Shown here one piece after another: positions 9,039 to 57,341 of a stretch of 64,000 nt of DNA; within the stretch, counting starts at the first letter, position 1; the number at the start of each line of letters is the position of its first letter. The translations under genes were made by a program, and so were the position numbers. The stretch covers positions 4,030,001-4,094,000 of the forward strand of contig NZ_CP084560.1 of assembly GCF_021789175.1 (NCBI RefSeq), read 5' to 3'. The notes under the pieces are model-generated. The model was not told the DNA's origin. It made no database searches and saw only the letters and a program-made list of their open reading frames with translations. This stretch comes from Arthrobacter sp. FW306-2-2C-D06B. Its GTDB lineage: Bacteria; Actinomycetota; Actinomycetes; Actinomycetales; Micrococcaceae.

Positions 9039-9506
9039 ATGACCCAAAAACTCCTCGCCGGAACCCAGGCCCCCGATTTCGCGCTGCTTAACTCCGAAGG
9101 CCAGAAGGTCTCCCTGTCCGATTACCGCGGACGCAACGTCATCGTGTACTTCTACCCGGAAGCCGCCACCCCCGGCTGCACCACGGAGGCCTGCGACTTC
9201 CGCGACAGCCTCTCCAGCCTGCAGTCCTCCGGCTACGAAGTCCTGGGCATCTCCCCTGACTCCCCCGAAAAGATCGCACGCTTCGCCGGCGACTTCTCCC
9301 TGACCTTCCCGCTCCTCTCCGACGAAGACCACGCCGTCGCCCTCGCCTACGGCGCCTGGGGCGAGAAGCTCGTGAACGGCGAAGTGGTCGACGGACTGGT
9401 CCGCTCCACCGTGGTGCTCGACGGCGAAGGCAAGGTCAAGCTGACCCAGTACCAGGTCAAGGCCCAGGGCCACGTAGCGGCCCTCAAGGCCGAACTCGGC
9501 CTCTAA
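9039..9506 (+). CDS. bcp: Thioredoxin-dependent peroxiredoxin, Bcp/PrxQ type
   Basis: 155 residues, typical of Bcp. It reduces hydroperoxides in the cytoplasm. The peroxidatic Cys47 lies in PGCTTEACDF, with a second cysteine at 52 that can serve as resolving residue (the alpha-2 atypical 2-Cys arrangement). An AAGGA ribosome site precedes the ATG. The first base of the downstream GCTCGC-type repeat array overlaps the stop codon, and a strong two-way terminator follows at 9568-9600. Confidence 0.93.
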   Translation: MTQKLLAGTQAPDFALLNSEGQKVSLSDYRGRNVIVYFYPEAATPGCTTEACDFRDSLSSLQSSGYEVLGISPDSPEKIARFAGDFSLTFPLLSDEDHAVALAYGAWGEKLVNGEVVDGLVRSTVVLDGEGKVKLTQYQVKAQGHVAALKAELGL

Positions 9507-9688
9507 CGCCCGCTCACAAACAAGGCCGCCCGGCCCGACGCCCGCTCACAAACAAGGCCGAATGACGGAATCCTCCAGCAGATGATCTGCTGGAGGATTC
9601 TCTATTTCCGGGTGAGCGAACGTTTGGGATTTGACCCCCCAAAGGTGAGCGAGCGTCCGGGACTTGACCCCCATAGGTGAGCGCGCGT
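9506..9688. repeat. 32-base-period intergenic array 1 (both orientations)
   Basis: Two inverted units (ACGCCCGCTCAC at 9506 and 9538, period 32) and three direct units (GTGAGCGAACGT at 9612, GTGAGCGAGCGT at 9645, GTGAGCGCGCGT at 9677, periods 33 and 32) flank a terminator. It fills the convergent space between the peroxiredoxin and M20 genes. The same 12-mer with the same period recurs at 11417, 24443, 25690 and 54864. Confidence 0.85.
9568..9600. terminator. Bidirectional terminator between bcp and the M20 gene
   Basis: GAATCCTCCAGCAGA (9568-9582) and its exact complement (9586-9600) form a 15-base stem with a TGA loop, followed on the plus strand by TCTATTT. It serves the two convergent genes. 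Confidence 0.85.
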
Positions 9689-11320: not shown

Positions 11321-11416
11321 CGTATTCCTTCCTAAAGTCATGCAGATCCAAAAACTGTTCCGCTACCCGGCGCCCGCCCCCAAGACCCTCACTCACATGT
11401 ATGGGCCTTCCGCCGG

Positions 11417-11485
11417 ACGCTCGCTCACTTGCCTAAAGAAAGTGAGCGAGCGTTGCCCGAAAGAGCGTCATACGTGAGCGAGCGT
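11417..11485. repeat. 32-base-period intergenic array 2
   Basis: One ACGCTCGCTCAC (11417-11428) faces two GTGAGCGAGCGT units (11442-11453, 11474-11485; period 32). The first two form a perfect 12-base stem with a 13-base loop. It lies upstream of the M20 gene and downstream of the ThDP enzyme gene on the minus strand. Confidence 0.85.
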
Positions 11486-11515: not shown

Positions 11516-13114
11516 CTACTCGATGCTCACGTGGATGAGGCTTGGTCCTTTGACGGCGAGCGCTTTGGTGACCACCCCGGCGAGTTCGTCGAGGGATTCC
11601 ACGTTGAACGCCGTCAGACCGAAGCCTTCGGCCAGCCGCACCCAGTCGGGCTGCGTCAAGTTCACGCCGACGGGGGCCAGATCCCGGTCCTCCATGTTTT
11701 GCCGGATTTCCCCGTAGCCCCCGTTGTTGATGCAGATGATGGGCAGGTCCACGCCCTGCTCCACGGCGGTGATGAATTCCTGGACAGCGAACATGAGCGC
11801 GCCGTCGCCGATCAGCCCCACCACGGGACGATCGGGGTCGGCCACCTTTGCGCCAATCGCGGCCGGCAGTCCATAACCCAATGTGGCGTACGCGGGCGTG
11901 TACAGGAGCTGATGTGGCTTCTGCACGGGGAAGAAGGACGTGGTTCCGAAATAGGTGATCTGCGAGGAATCGCCCGCAATGACCGTGTCCGAGGGCAAGA
12001 CCGCTGCAAGGATCTCGTTGATTTGGGCCAGCACCGGCGCCATGGAACGGGCTTCGGTCCGCAGTTCGCCCCGCGGGTGGTCCAATTCCGGAGCGGGGCC
12101 CGGCTCATGTCCGGCGAGTGCCGCGAGCAGTTGGGGCACGACGGCGGACGCGTTGCCCAGGAGCTCGACGTCCGGCGCAAGATTGCACTGCAGTTGGGCG
12201 GGGTCGATGTCGATCCGGATGCACGAACCCTGCGGCACGATCTTGCCGCCCCACAGCTCTGACTCGCCCACCTTGGAACCGATCACCAGCAGCGCGTCGG
12301 AAGCGTTGCACAGATCCTGGGCCGCTGCGAGCCGGATTTCCGAGCCCAGCGACAAGGGATGGGCTTCCGGAATAGCGCCCTTCCCATTGATGGTGGTCAC
12401 CACGGGGGCTTGCAGGAGTTCTGCCAGTTCAAGCAGCGCGCCGCCGGTTCCGAGCGATCCGCCCCCGGCCAGGATCACCGGATTCGAAGCGCGGCCGAGG
12501 ATCTCCGCGGCGGTGGCAACGGCGTCGTCGGCTGCTGTTTTCGGCGCACCCAAGGGCCGGGCCTCCAGTGCGGAGGGGTCGACGTCGGACGCGCCCTCGA
12601 GGACGTCCAGCGGGATCTCGATGTGGACCGGTCGCGGCCGCCCGTGCGCGAAGAAGGAGAAGGCTTCGTGAATCAGCTCCACGGCCTCGCTGCCGCTGGC
12701 TACCCGCGTGCTGCGCCCGATCAGTGCCCGGACCGCACCCGTGGGGTCCTTCGTTTCGTGCAGCAGCCCGATGTCCGAGAACTCGCTGCCGCGCGGCGCG
12801 CCTGGGGACAGGATGATCATGGGCCGGGACTCGCAATAGGAAGTGGCCGCGGCGGACATCGCGTTCAGCAGGCCGGGTCCGGAGGTGGTGATCACGACGC
12901 CGGGAAGCCCCTTGAGCTGGCTCCATCCGTCGGAGCCGTACCCGGCTCCTTGTTCATGACGGGTGGTCACGGGGCGAATGCCGAGCGGCTCCAGGTGCCG
13001 GTAGAACTCGAGGTTGTGGGTGCCGGGGATTCCGAAGATCGCGTCGATCCCGTAGTTCCGCAGCGTGGTCATGACGGCAAGGCCGACGTTGTTGGTGGGG
13101 ATGGAAGTGGTCAA
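11516..13114 (-). CDS. Thiamine-diphosphate-dependent 2-oxoacid decarboxylase, possibly AruI-like
   Basis: 532 residues in PYR-central-PP order. The PYR domain keeps the activating Glu54 (TTRHEQGAGYGSDG), unlike Gcl, and the ThDP/Mg motif is GDGALMF...CINNGGYGEI near 415-445. The sequence around the PYR glutamate and TSGPGLLNA recalls 5-guanidino-2-oxopentanoate decarboxylases (AruI), but benzoylformate decarboxylase- or acetolactate-synthase-like functions remain possible. It is the last gene of an operon with an amino-acid ABC transporter and is divergent from a TetR regulator and an aminotransferase. Together they could import an amino acid, transaminate it and decarboxylate the 2-oxoacid. 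The exact substrate is inferred. Confidence 0.78.
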   Translation of the reverse strand: MTTSIPTNNVGLAVMTTLRNYGIDAIFGIPGTHNLEFYRHLEPLGIRPVTTRHEQGAGYGSDGWSQLKGLPGVVITTSGPGLLNAMSAAATSYCESRPMIILSPGAPRGSEFSDIGLLHETKDPTGAVRALIGRSTRVASGSEAVELIHEAFSFFAHGRPRPVHIEIPLDVLEGASDVDPSALEARPLGAPKTAADDAVATAAEILGRASNPVILAGGGSLGTGGALLELAELLQAPVVTTINGKGAIPEAHPLSLGSEIRLAAAQDLCNASDALLVIGSKVGESELWGGKIVPQGSCIRIDIDPAQLQCNLAPDVELLGNASAVVPQLLAALAGHEPGPAPELDHPRGELRTEARSMAPVLAQINEILAAVLPSDTVIAGDSSQITYFGTTSFFPVQKPHQLLYTPAYATLGYGLPAAIGAKVADPDRPVVGLIGDGALMFAVQEFITAVEQGVDLPIICINNGGYGEIRQNMEDRDLAPVGVNLTQPDWVRLAEGFGLTAFNVESLDELAGVVTKALAVKGPSLIHVSIE

Positions 13115-24442: not shown

Positions 24443-24516
24443 ACGCTCGCTCACAAACAAGGCTTCCCGGCGTGACGCTCGCTCACAAACAAGGCCTCCC
24501 GGCGTGACGCTCGCTC
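24443..24516. repeat. 32-base-period intergenic array 3
   Basis: ACGCTCGCTC(AC) at 24443, 24475 and 24507, each followed in the first two by ACAAACAAGGC and a CCCGGCG block; period exactly 32. It lies in the convergent space between the lrp-type gene and the PucG-like gene. The first two units are almost identical to the inverted units of array 1. Confidence 0.85.
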
Positions 24517-24545
24517 GGGATTTGGCCGCCAAAAGGAAGCGCGCG

Positions 24546-25640
24546 TCAGGCTTTGGCGATCGCTTCTTCCAGCGCGCCAAGGACGAGCTTCACCGACGCC
24601 CTGTTGGCATTCGGCCCCATCATGCCTATCCGCCAAACGGTCGACGTAAACGCACCCGCCCCGGAGCCGATTTCCATACTGAAGTTCTCCAGAAGGTATG
24701 CGCGGACGGCGGCCGAGTCCACGCCGTCGGGCACTTTAACCGTGGTGAGGCTCGGCAATCGCGCGCCCTCCGCGGCAAACAGCTCGAGCCCCATCGCTTC
24801 AAGGCCATCCCGCAACTCGGCCCCGGCCGCACGGTGCCGCGCTTGAACAGCCGCGAGCCCCTCGGCCAAGATGCGGTCCAGTCCTGCCTCGAGCCCTGCG
24901 ATCATGGTCACCGGAGCCGTATGGTGATAGGTCCGGCTGCCGCTCGCCGCGCCAACATACCCACCCAAAAGGCCGATATCCAGGTACCACGATCGCGGCT
25001 CCTTGATGCGCCGCTCGAAAGCGCGCTCGGACACGGTGAACGGCGACAAGCCAGGGGGCGCTCCCAAACACTTCTGCGTCCCGGCATAACCGACGTCGAT
25101 CCCCCAGTCGTCAGCAAGAAGGTCCAGCCCGCCGATGGACGTCACCGCGTCCACAATCAATAGCGCGTCGCCTTTGCCTGCGCCAAGGGGCGCGACGTCG
25201 GACAGGACACCCGTCGAGGTTTCGGCATGGACGGCGGCGATCACCTTCGGATGCGGGTGCGCGGCGAGAACCCGCTCCGCGTCCACCGGCTGGCCCCATT
25301 CATGGTCGACGCGGACCACCGTGGCCCCGCAGCGGCGCGCAACCTCACACATGCGCTCACCGAAAAGCCCATTGACGGCGATTACTGCCACGTCGCCGTC
25401 GGACACTGTATTAACAAACGCAGCCTCCATGCCGCCGGATCCAGTGGCACTCAACGGCAGGGTGCGGGCATTCCGGGTTCCCCACACAGTTCGAAGCCCC
25501 GCGCATGTCCGGTCCAGGCGCTCTATGAACACCGGATCCAAATGCCCGATCACCGGATACGCCAACGCGGCGGTCACTTCCGGATAGCAATTGCTGGGAC
25601 CCGGTCCGAAGAGATACCGGGAAGTCAGGACCTCTGGCAT
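24546..25640 (-). CDS. PLP-dependent aminotransferase, PucG/alanine-glyoxylate type
   Basis: 364 residues. It belongs to the class V aminotransferases that include PucG ((S)-ureidoglycine-glyoxylate aminotransferase), alanine-glyoxylate and serine-glyoxylate transaminases. Visible are LFGPGPSNCYPEV at the start, ATGSGGMEAAF for phosphate binding (about 65-75), the PLP Asp in IVDAVTSIGG, and the Schiff-base Lys in YAGTQKCLGAPPG near 195. The start is the ATG with AAAGGAG eight bases upstream; the longer frame reaching 25997 runs through the repeat array and the uraD control region. Divergent from uraD-uraH, a ureidoglycine/glyoxylate role is likely. Confidence 0.88.
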   Translation of the reverse strand: MPEVLTSRYLFGPGPSNCYPEVTAALAYPVIGHLDPVFIERLDRTCAGLRTVWGTRNARTLPLSATGSGGMEAAFVNTVSDGDVAVIAVNGLFGERMCEVARRCGATVVRVDHEWGQPVDAERVLAAHPHPKVIAAVHAETSTGVLSDVAPLGAGKGDALLIVDAVTSIGGLDLLADDWGIDVGYAGTQKCLGAPPGLSPFTVSERAFERRIKEPRSWYLDIGLLGGYVGAASGSRTYHHTAPVTMIAGLEAGLDRILAEGLAAVQARHRAAGAELRDGLEAMGLELFAAEGARLPSLTTVKVPDGVDSAAVRAYLLENFSMEIGSGAGAFTSTVWRIGMMGPNANRASVKLVLGALEEAIAKA

Positions 25641-25689: not shown

Positions 25690-25765
25690 GTGAGCGAGCG
25701 TTTCGGGAGAACCCGGCATAAGTGAGCGAGCGTTTCGGGAGAACCCGGCATAAGTGAGCGAGCGT
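25690..25765. repeat. 32-base-period intergenic array 4 (upstream of uraD and the PucG-like gene)
   Basis: GTGAGCGAGCGT at 25690, 25722 and 25754, period exactly 32. The first two 32-base units are identical, each with TTCGGGAGAACCCGGCATAA after the 12-mer. Unlike arrays 1 and 3 it lies in a divergent 5' region, between the PucG-like gene and the uraD promoter. Confidence 0.88.
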
Positions 25766-54863: not shown

Positions 54864-54956
54864 ACGCTCGCTCACTTTTGAGGGCAAAACCGCGGGCGCT
54901 CGCTCACATCATCTGAGCGAGCGTTCGGGGAAAGGGCGTTATAGGTGAGCGAGCGT
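54864..54956. repeat. 32-base-period intergenic array 5 (both orientations)
   Basis: ACGCTCGCTCAC (54864) and GCGCTCGCTCAC (54896), period 32, face TGAGCGAGCGT (54914) and GTGAGCGAGCGT (54945; period 32 when the first is counted from 54913). The middle two form an 11-base stem with one G-T pair and a 7-base loop. It lies between arsR and trpF, both on the minus strand. Confidence 0.85.
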
Positions 54957-56529: not shown

Positions 56530-56605
56530 TGGTGAGGTCCGCCACCAAAGCTGGCCACCCGCCGTCGGGATTTGCTAGCCTCGAAGGAAGGCCCGCAGAG
56601 GACCT

Positions 56606-56646
56606 CCGGACGACGGTTCAGTACCCGGCACGCGACAAGACTGGCC
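56606..56646 (+). ncRNA. Guanidine-III (ykkC-III) riboswitch
   Basis: The 41 bases keep the class III signature: CCGGACGA at 56606-56613, GUACCCGG at 56621-56628 and GACAAGAC at 56634-56641. CCGG pairs with CCGG for the hairpin, and GGU(U)CAGU pairs with ACUGGCC (56640-56646) as pseudoknot with one bulged U. The ribosome site AAAGGA (56647-56652) abuts the pseudoknot, so ligand binding would control translation of the downstream SMR exporter pair. Match made from memory of the published consensus. Confidence 0.85.
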
Positions 56647-56658
56647 AAAGGATCTGTC

Positions 56659-56973
56659 ATGTCGTGGTTAATCCTCATTCTGTCCGGCGCGCTCGAGGCC
56701 GTCTGGGCCGCAGCCCTCTATCGTTCCCAAGGCTTCCGCAAACCGGCCCCCTCCGCCATCTTCCTGGTGACCGTCATCGCGAGCACCGCAGGGCTGGCCT
56801 TCGCGATGCAATCCATTCCCACCGGGACCGCGTATGCGGTGTGGGTCGGAGTCGGCGTCGTCCTCACGGCCGCTTACGCGATGATCACCAAAGTCGAGCG
56901 CCCGACGGCGGCCCGGCTGCTGCTGCTCGCCGGCATCGGTGCGTGCGTGGTCGGCTTGAAGGTGGTGGCGTAG
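56659..56973 (+). CDS. SMR-family guanidinium exporter, subunit 1
   Basis: 104 residues, four membrane helices. The conserved membrane-embedded Glu is in SGALEAVWAAAL (E13). PTGTAYAVWVGVG in helix 3 matches the Gdx/SugE branch rather than EmrE. SMR proteins exchange protons for cations as dual-topology or paired dimers; here two different genes lie together, implying a heterodimer. The riboswitch directly upstream, plus GTAYAVW, points to guanidinium as substrate. The ATG has AAAGGA six bases upstream and lies 12 bases after the riboswitch. Confidence 0.92.
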   Translation: MSWLILILSGALEAVWAAALYRSQGFRKPAPSAIFLVTVIASTAGLAFAMQSIPTGTAYAVWVGVGVVLTAAYAMITKVERPTAARLLLLAGIGACVVGLKVVA

Positions 56974-56975
56974 CC

Positions 56976-57341
56976 ATGAACGCCAAGTTGGCATGGGCCG
57001 TTCTGCTGGCCTCCGCCGTGCTCGAAGCTGTGTGGGCGACGGCCCTTGGACTGTCCGACGGCTTCAGCCAAGCCCTCCCCACCGTGGTCTTCGCCGTCAC
57101 TGCAAGCCTCAGCATGATCGGGCTCGGCGTCGCTGTGAAACGGATTCCCTTGGGCACGGCCTACGCCGTCTGGGTCGGGATCGGCGCTGCGCTGACGGTC
57201 GGCTGGGCGATGGCAACCGGCGTCGAACCGGCCAGCCCGCTCAAGCTGCTGTTCATCGCGGGAATCGTCGGTTGCGCGGCCGGGTTGAAGGCCCTTCCCC
57301 CGGAGAGGCGTGAAGAAGTGACGGAGCCGGCCCAATCGTAA
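56976..57341 (+). CDS. SMR-family guanidinium exporter, subunit 2
   Basis: 121 residues, four membrane helices, with Glu17 in ASAVLEAVWATALG and the Gdx-type LGTAYAVWVGIG. A hydrophilic C-terminal tail of about 15 residues (PPERREEVTEPAQS) distinguishes it from subunit 1. It starts two bases after the stop of its partner. Paired SMR proteins usually insert in opposite orientation; the charge bias needed to decide this is modest here. Confidence 0.92.
   Translation: MNAKLAWAVLLASAVLEAVWATALGLSDGFSQALPTVVFAVTASLSMIGLGVAVKRIPLGTAYAVWVGIGAALTVGWAMATGVEPASPLKLLFIAGIVGCAAGLKALPPERREEVTEPAQS

Follow-up and report, generated by a model that had tools for sequence, protein, structure and literature searches.

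Phased 32-base intergenic repeat arrays in Arthrobacter and their putative partnership with a VSR-type nuclease gene

What keeps a 12-base sequence at intervals of 32 bases between the genes of an Arthrobacter, and is there an enzyme that works with it? The window, by which we mean the whole 64,000-nucleotide stretch of DNA analysed (positions 4,030,001-4,094,000 of the one-contig, 4,564,406-base genome G000), contains five intergenic arrays of GTGAGCGAGCGT or its complement with a spacing of 32 bases. A sequence-only reading had listed 18 units, called the complete arrays mirror-symmetric and offered three interpretations: an array bound by protein, a mobile family of REP-like palindromes, or a structured RNA. 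All 18 units were confirmed in place, 11 of them exact, six with one mismatch and one (24507) with two; a unit at 11385, with two mismatches, was absent from that list. When up to two mismatches are allowed, GTGAGCGAGCGT has 21 matches in the window against 10.7 expected, a number reached in none of 100 shuffles. The five arrays are:

9506..9688, both orientations (--+++): array 1, convergent gene pair; left arm of two units ACGCCCGCTCAC at 9506 and 9538, right arm of three GTGAGCG... units at 9612, 9645 and 9677
11385..11485, (--++): array 2, tandem minus-strand genes; units at 11385 (two mismatches), 11417, 11442 and 11474
24443..24518, minus (---): array 3, convergent gene pair; units at 24443, 24475 and 24507 (the third with two mismatches)
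25690..25765, plus (+++): array 4, divergent gene pair; three exact units with identical 20-base spacers
54864..54956, (--++): array 5, 93 bases, between tandem genes of the minus strand; distance to the upstream stop 13 bases

Array 2 lies 30 bases off the stop of its upstream gene (11516-13114). Array 5 is a symmetric, two-armed layout of 12-20-12-5-12-20-12, a form which recurs at G000 positions 845417-845509 and 2980700-2980792. Mirror symmetry is not general, since the arrays at 24443 and 25690 have units in one orientation only. Between these two lies a class-V aminotransferase gene (24546-25640, 364 aa), and locus L058 of Arthrobacter bambusae shows the same bracketing; some further genes of related loci (L158 and L061, for instance) are likewise enclosed by arrays, as is the form I gene described below. 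The unit at 9506 overlaps by one base the stop codon of an AhpC/TSA-family gene (9039-9506). After this gene, a separate hairpin similar to GTAACGCCCGCTCAC / GTGAGCGGGCGTTAC was seen by eye, with small changes, in seven genomes of the G038 clade (loci L235, L236, L237, L238, L239, L241 and L243), being kept in G040 despite a degraded array; it resembles a single array dyad serving as a terminator. Elsewhere in the window, a guanidine-III riboswitch (RF01763, 53.6 bits) was found at 56586-56649 on the plus strand, and just 3' of it are two SMR (small multidrug resistance) family genes (56659-56973 and 56976-57341; PF00893), probably a guanidine exporter pair.

The unit comprises GTG-N5-GCGT followed by 20 bases, 32 in all, in which GTG and GCGT are fixed and the five middle bases vary. 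It is not palindromic in itself, palindromy existing only between arms, and arrays hold 2-13 units. Exact copies of GTGAGCGAGCGT number 126 (60 + 66) in the whole 4.56-Mb genome, and the reversed-pattern control gave none. Among 100 listed copies of the 126, same-orientation neighbours within 300 bases were exactly 32 apart in 30 of 38 cases, the remaining eight intervals being 33, 64, 65, 160 or 183. With up to one mismatch allowed in the window and 150 loci (151 records in all, whose overlaps cause some copies to be counted twice), the same-orientation interval was 32 in 443 cases with 64 as runner-up in 12, and the inverted interval was mostly 17 (48 cases) or 49 (15), so that the 32-base register continues through the dyad. 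The genome-wide scan with interval statistics that had been suggested along with the three interpretations returned a spacing of 32, not a random one, and, in the G000 stretches described below, units outside predicted genes. Spacers of adjacent units agree at 15.4 of 20 positions, compared with 9.0 between different arrays and 5.1 after shuffling, which points to local duplication of units. The register, which would correspond to three helical turns, is constant in both genera that carry arrays although the spacers differ. The letters of the 12-mer are similar to the Rep-binding site of AAV, which we dismissed as a chance likeness of GAGC repeats.

The placement of the arrays was examined in 32 stretches of G000, consisting of the window and 31 stretches chosen around listed copies, with genes predicted by a purpose-written hexamer gene caller. 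None of the 258 units in the 48 arrays found there falls inside a predicted gene, which bears out the intergenic location first noted in the window; in a wider set that adds loci of ten other genomes, one of 102 arrays lies inside a gene call (in G009). Array-bearing intergenes were convergent in 21 cases, tandem in 22 and divergent in 5, compared with 16, 65 and 33 among those intergenes of these stretches that are free of arrays and 60 bases or longer. Convergent intergenes are therefore enriched for arrays (odds ratio 4.8, p 8e-5) and divergent ones depleted (odds ratio 0.29, p 0.014). Between tandem genes, the median distance was 18.5 bases from array to upstream stop and 83.5 to downstream start, 19 of the 22 arrays being closer to the former, and some arrays start on the stop codon itself, as at 9506. 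In G000, transcription running out of a gene first reaches ACGC...CAC in 52 of 64 cases. On the scale of the contig, 32 of the 42 copies in the first half have GTGAGCGAGCGT on the minus strand, whereas 38 of the 58 in the second half have it on the plus strand (100 listed of 126), and the weak GC skew of the fetched stretches switches sign along with this preference; it would be a lagging-strand bias if the origin lies at the contig start.

Searches with the general pattern ACGC-N5-CAC-N20-ACGC-N5-CAC revealed arrays in 55 of the 61 genomes of the window's genus, against a control total of five sites. Our first counts had indicated a patchy element with few carrier genomes; this was largely patchiness of dialect. 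Dialects are genome-specific, in that the five bases between GTG and GCGT change and the period of 32 is kept, and each genome has its own spacer consensus beside the 12-mer. At the fhs-ino1 locus of seemingly array-less genomes there are 32-base arrays of other 12-mers, e.g. GTGAGAGAGCGT, GTGAGGGAGCGT and GTGATGGGGCGT. Array counts are lower bounds because the pair pattern overlooks some dialects (e.g. in G017). They range from 0 to 222 pairs within one genus, the one-contig genomes G028 and G043 having 0 by a pattern that can miss dialects. Across the order (396 genomes, with one genome of genus g24 sampled and 24 family genomes of other genera covered), the window's genus and g24 are the only ones in which the general pattern clearly exceeds its control. 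Three g24 genomes hold 30-54 array pairs of the GTGAGCG dialect. The named carriers among the 80 loci listed are Arthrobacter and Paenarthrobacter.

Is there a gene that accompanies the arrays? Comparison of the genes beside arrays in several species (479 entries) brought out, along with other families, an arrangement shared between genera, fhs > array > gene > array < ino1; in G000 Pfam confirmed fhs and ino1 as formate-THF ligase and inositol-phosphate synthase. The gene in the middle, hereafter form I, was chosen among the array-adjacent families because it spans genera, and the full flank survey covered form I; other families were equally frequent in the screen (10, 8, 7 and 7 entries), mostly in close relatives of the window. 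Homologues of this AbiEi-DUF559 protein occur in all 61 genus genomes, and form I was at first discarded as a driver on that account, a decision that was reversed once form I had been split from form II and the other paralogues. A protein search independent of the arrays located form I, at 64% identity or more, in 41 of the 61 genomes (the copies in G009 and G021 are partial and that in G047 has a stop), with many form II and other paralogues among the matches listed.

The flanks of these genes were compared by a motif-free test, the lag self-similarity of 450 bases on either side. Arrays with a lag of 32 were found within 450 bases of 40 of the 41 form I genes versus none of the 24 form II and other paralogues fetched. 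Of 82 form I flanks, 58 were strongly self-similar, 56 of these best at lag 32. A second set of loci, which includes 13 form I loci in g24 as well as G229 and G287 loci already part of earlier comparisons, gave 18 of 20 for form I versus 0 of 4 for form II-like genes; one of the two misses shows paired units by the strict detector and the other scored 28/44 against a threshold of 29. As base rates, the lag test was positive for 0 of 50 genes of form II loci, 5 of 59 genes of the window and 12 of 30 orthologues of its array-adjacent AhpC/TSA gene. The strict detector, applied to the 41 form I genes, found arrays on both sides in 17, on one side in 13 and on neither in 11, the last having further 32-base dialects recognizable by eye. 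Orientation was uniform, '-' units lying on the low side (upstream of form I) and '+' units on the high side (downstream) in 30 of 30 cases. Paralogues which occupy the same ino1 site are without arrays.

Form I is situated between fhs and ino1, at a site B (one clade), at a site E or, in G002, elsewhere, with arrays kept; the G038 clade and a further group likewise have it at other loci with arrays still present. At fhs-ino1, arrays persist without form I in G038, G039 and G057, and neither is there in G040 and G046. In the form I tree (from which G047 and G035, with short or misread frames, were omitted, and in which the long branch of G009 is a misjoined reading frame), the protein of G015, whose gene is at the ino1 site, groups within the site E clade, so that the gene seems to have changed place. 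Together with the different genomic sites, this suggests from sequence comparison that form I may be mobile, as homing endonuclease genes are. In G037 a 123-residue C-terminal piece of a DUF559-family gene (form I or II; L296:5464-5835, 49.6% identity) remains beside fhs; this genome has 1 array pair, versus 57 in G051.

Two further features of these loci were noted. A second gene pair, of 201 aa and mostly 166-194 aa, is interrupted or flanked by arrays at L153, L192, L216 and L223 (and L076 and L113), in G000, G009, G051 and G098, which belong to different clades; it is a further conserved array site. Upstream of form I there is a conserved CCTGTGGATAACTTCTGC-like element (e.g. L175 near 5985), 47-65 bases ahead of the start of the match, and it also precedes most other DUF559-family genes examined. 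With G035 omitted (strand unknown), TGTGGATAA was present upstream of 38/40 form I genes and 18/24 form II genes or paralogues, compared with 1/306 genes in the G000 stretches. On its other strand the CCTGTGGATAACTTCTGC-like element contains TTATCCACA, which resembles a DnaA box. The element suggests a family-wide, possibly replication-linked control of DUF559-family genes.

In the form I protein an AbiEi-like winged helix at the N terminus is followed by a DUF559/VSR-type nuclease domain at the C terminus, which is similar to that of I-Bth0305I. Pfam gave a sub-threshold AbiEi_4 match plus DUF559 (PF04480), the latter at 27.4 bits in G000 (cut-off 20.6), 24.7 in L208 and, below the cut-off, 17.1 in L185. 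In AbiE toxin-antitoxin systems AbiEi is joined to, or lies next to, an AbiEii nucleotidyltransferase toxin; Pfam gave just those two matches in the form I protein, whose neighbours at fhs-ino1 in G000 are formate-THF ligase and inositol-phosphate synthase. Of 7,997 candidates scored, 747 were homologues at E 1e-30; those named by organism among the 120 listed come from Arthrobacter, Paenarthrobacter and Pseudarthrobacter. Residues E207, D239, H256 and D265 are invariant in 50 aligned homologues from these 120, and presumably compare with the EDxHD motif of VSR-like homing endonucleases. The AlphaFold2 model had a mean pLDDT of 57.4; in ten-residue blocks it reached 76-86 over residues 11-50 and 70-89 over 211-310, except for 48 at 251-260, in the nuclease core, and 68 at 261-270. 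In Foldseek, where no match had E < 0.03 and the best two rows were mitochondrial ribosome chains (E 0.033 and 0.058), the model matched the I-Bth0305I catalytic domain (3r3p_B; probability 0.99, TMt 0.73, E 0.16) and the AbiEi antitoxin 6y8q (probability 0.63, E 0.065). A PDB profile search also retrieved 3r3p, at E 0.052. On the strength of the DUF559 domain and the matched nuclease fold, form I is a predicted nuclease of the VSR/EDxHD type.

Does the presence of form I go with the number of arrays? Array pairs number 2-222 (median 27) where form I is present and 0-115 (median 4) where it is not, a significant difference over the 61 genus genomes (Mann-Whitney p 2.3e-5), and all six zero-pair genomes are without form I. 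Its absence, in 18 of the 59 genomes on an ino1 tree from which G026 and G027, having no ino1, were omitted, is unclustered: it requires 15 changes, and 211 of 500 shuffles gave a number as low as this. Compared with its nearest carrier, each of the 18 form I-less genomes has fewer arrays in 16 cases and more in two (G024 and G031), the 18 contrasts not being fully independent; averaged by partner, 12 of 12 show fewer. Among 245 genomes of the family, form I at 59% identity or more was found only in g1 (13/18) and g24 (13/15), the genera where arrays were found. Arrays also exist without form I, in G042 (115 pairs), G027 (49), G024 (25), G031 (20), G003 (17) and the one-contig G025 (17); in G042 form I may lie in an assembly gap, because the contig with ino1 ends in an array. 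The link between form I and arrays, confined to two genera and expressed mostly as fewer arrays where form I is missing, is thus a correlational one.

Dialect distance tracks form I distance when ino1 distance is taken into account (partial r 0.24, p 0.005; 39 genomes), the reverse test giving a partial r of 0.10 (p 0.10; 39 genomes); the arrays used were those flanking form I itself and may simply travel with the gene. Close relatives have arrays at the same sites, differing by whole 32-base units. Within the close clade 249 of 253 comparisons, at 114 sites, were shared, a figure that overstates the sharing because most of the loci compared were fetched for holding arrays; in the same array-ascertained loci, a search for empty sites gave no new insertion recognizable by a target duplication and a clean empty site.

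From these observations we propose, as a reading somewhat more probable than not, that the arrays are a REP-like repeat family partnered by a VSR-type nuclease and not by a tyrosine transposase. Units of 32 bases, in which the 12-mer is the constant portion, would line up in phase as direct arrays, frequently with two inverted arms on either side of a 5-base centre, and would be scattered over the gene ends of Arthrobacter sensu lato and of one sister genus. The pair of repeat and enzyme would work like REP and RAYT with another enzyme, form I, whose gene lies between inverted arrays. Form I may use its winged helix to bind the unit, and with a spacing of three turns neighbouring protomers would sit on the same side of the DNA; it may also nick or cut units and so provoke recombinational repair. 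Such repair would add or remove 32-base units, spread the current dialect between arrays and, rarely, seed new sites; arrays tolerated just past stop codons might act secondarily as insulators or terminators. The unit-number changes in relatives and the correlation of dialect with form I agree with a repair-driven model. More tentatively, since here our belief falls a little short of even, we suggest a drive within the genome, in which a winged-helix endonuclease of the VSR/homing type reads the dialect and cuts units, repair homogenises and multiplies them, and specificity and dialect co-evolve.

Perhaps the arrays serve the host instead, as phased roadblock terminators or insulators between convergent genes or as nucleoid sites, to which form I binds with no part in their spread. 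The convergent enrichment and divergent depletion, the closeness of tandem arrays to upstream stops, the orientation that outgoing transcripts mostly meet and the maintenance of a period of 32 in both genera despite differing spacers all favour this. We consider it unlikely, however. With 0 to 222 pairs in one genus, and 0 in the one-contig G028 and G043, the arrays look dispensable, and nothing in a host role predicts that the gene of one paralogue should have flanking arrays at different sites (58 of 61 loci).

An improbable alternative is a minisatellite or REP-like repeat which propagates itself by slippage and gene conversion alone, form I merely sitting in an old hot spot. The similarity of adjacent spacers and the whole-unit differences between relatives are what slippage would produce, and the 201/166 aa gene pair has arrays too, in four genomes of different clades. 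Against a hot spot stand the arrays of form I at different genomic sites, the paralogues without arrays at the same ino1 site and the scattered form I absences that accompany fewer arrays; moreover, neutral slippage would hardly keep 32 bases across two genera.

That the arrays are structured RNA, selected as intrinsic terminators or 3'-UTR hairpins, seems very improbable. Arrays do follow stop codons, and two two-armed arrays fold far better than shuffles (z -9.6 for array 5 and -7.1 for array 2), but three one-armed strands do not (z -0.2, -0.3 and +1.7), no Rfam match at gathering scores was obtained at arrays, and both the period of 32 and form I are left unexplained. Spacers of left and right arms agree at 7.9/20, no better than the 9.0/20 between different arrays, without excess pairing, which excludes a long hairpin with paired spacers. 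RNA structure is therefore not the common denominator. Of the three initial interpretations, the REP-like and protein-bound ones both fit, because the arrays are dispersed, intergenic, at 3' ends, in helical register and in dialects, with a gene flanked by inverted arrays.

That a RAYT (TnpA-REP) tyrosine transposase moves them as a classical REP/REPIN family is scarcely credible, and we rejected RAYT as the driver: extragenic location, 3'-end bias, inverted doublets and genome-specific dialects would suit it, but the RAYT predicted in array-rich genomes is missing, Y1_Tnp (PF01797) being present in only one (G031, without form I) of the 61 genus genomes, and not in G000, versus 5 of 14 control genomes. 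The REP-like interpretation accordingly fits as to dispersal, but not as a REP/RAYT family with a palindromic unit.

If the partnership with form I is real, it would be a second, independent route by which bacterial genomes gain and keep intergenic repeats. One branch of the AbiEi-DUF559 proteins, which are common in the genus, would gain a function, and dozens of enzyme/dialect pairs found in nature could serve to study the evolution of DNA specificity. In the open-licence literature searched, we found no description of these arrays, of DUF559 with REPs or of such a repeat family-enzyme partnership. Arthrobacter livingstonensis appears in a table of predicted REPs in PMC12306157, which reports no clustering or periodicity for one genome that it treats, and a term search of PMC3733652 gave no mention of Arthrobacter.

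How do the arrays compare with known systems? As described in PMC3116915 and PMC8266576, REP/REPIN repeats and RAYT form 'REPtrons', in which many short extragenic repeats, often inverted doublets forming hairpins, are linked to and co-evolve with the partner gene RAYT. The present arrays are similarly extragenic, dispersed and of high copy number (126 exact copies; 0/258 units in predicted genes), and a partner gene is flanked by repeats, but this is form I DUF559 (40/41 and 18/20 versus 0/24 and 0/4), an AbiEi-HTH and DUF559/VSR-type protein in place of the Y1 tyrosine transposase. The 12-mer also differs from REP in its strict 32-base period, in arrays of 2-13 units and in a unit which is not a palindrome. 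A REP is a short palindrome with foot tags. Because RAYT is lacking and the unit is not palindromic, we do not file the arrays as REPs. To our knowledge, wherever a partner enzyme of an intergenic repeat family is known in bacteria, the family has been tied to tyrosine (HUH) transposases.

The BIMEs of Escherichia coli are mosaic intergenic arrays with alternating unit orientation at gene 3' ends and are RAYT-linked; we know of no single fixed helical period for them across species. Our arrays share the alternately oriented units and the location at gene 3' ends, and differ in their fixed period of 32 bases across species and in having no link to RAYT. DNA uptake sequences also have 12-mer dialects and inverted pairs at gene ends, as do the arrays; unlike them, the units described here form phased arrays, with all 258 of those in the G000 stretches lying outside predicted genes. 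Finally, form I is like the VSR-like/EDxHD homing endonucleases such as I-Bth0305I in the fold match of its catalytic domain and in its invariant E, D, H and D residues, and unlike them in its AbiEi-like winged helix and in a gene flanked by repeat arrays.
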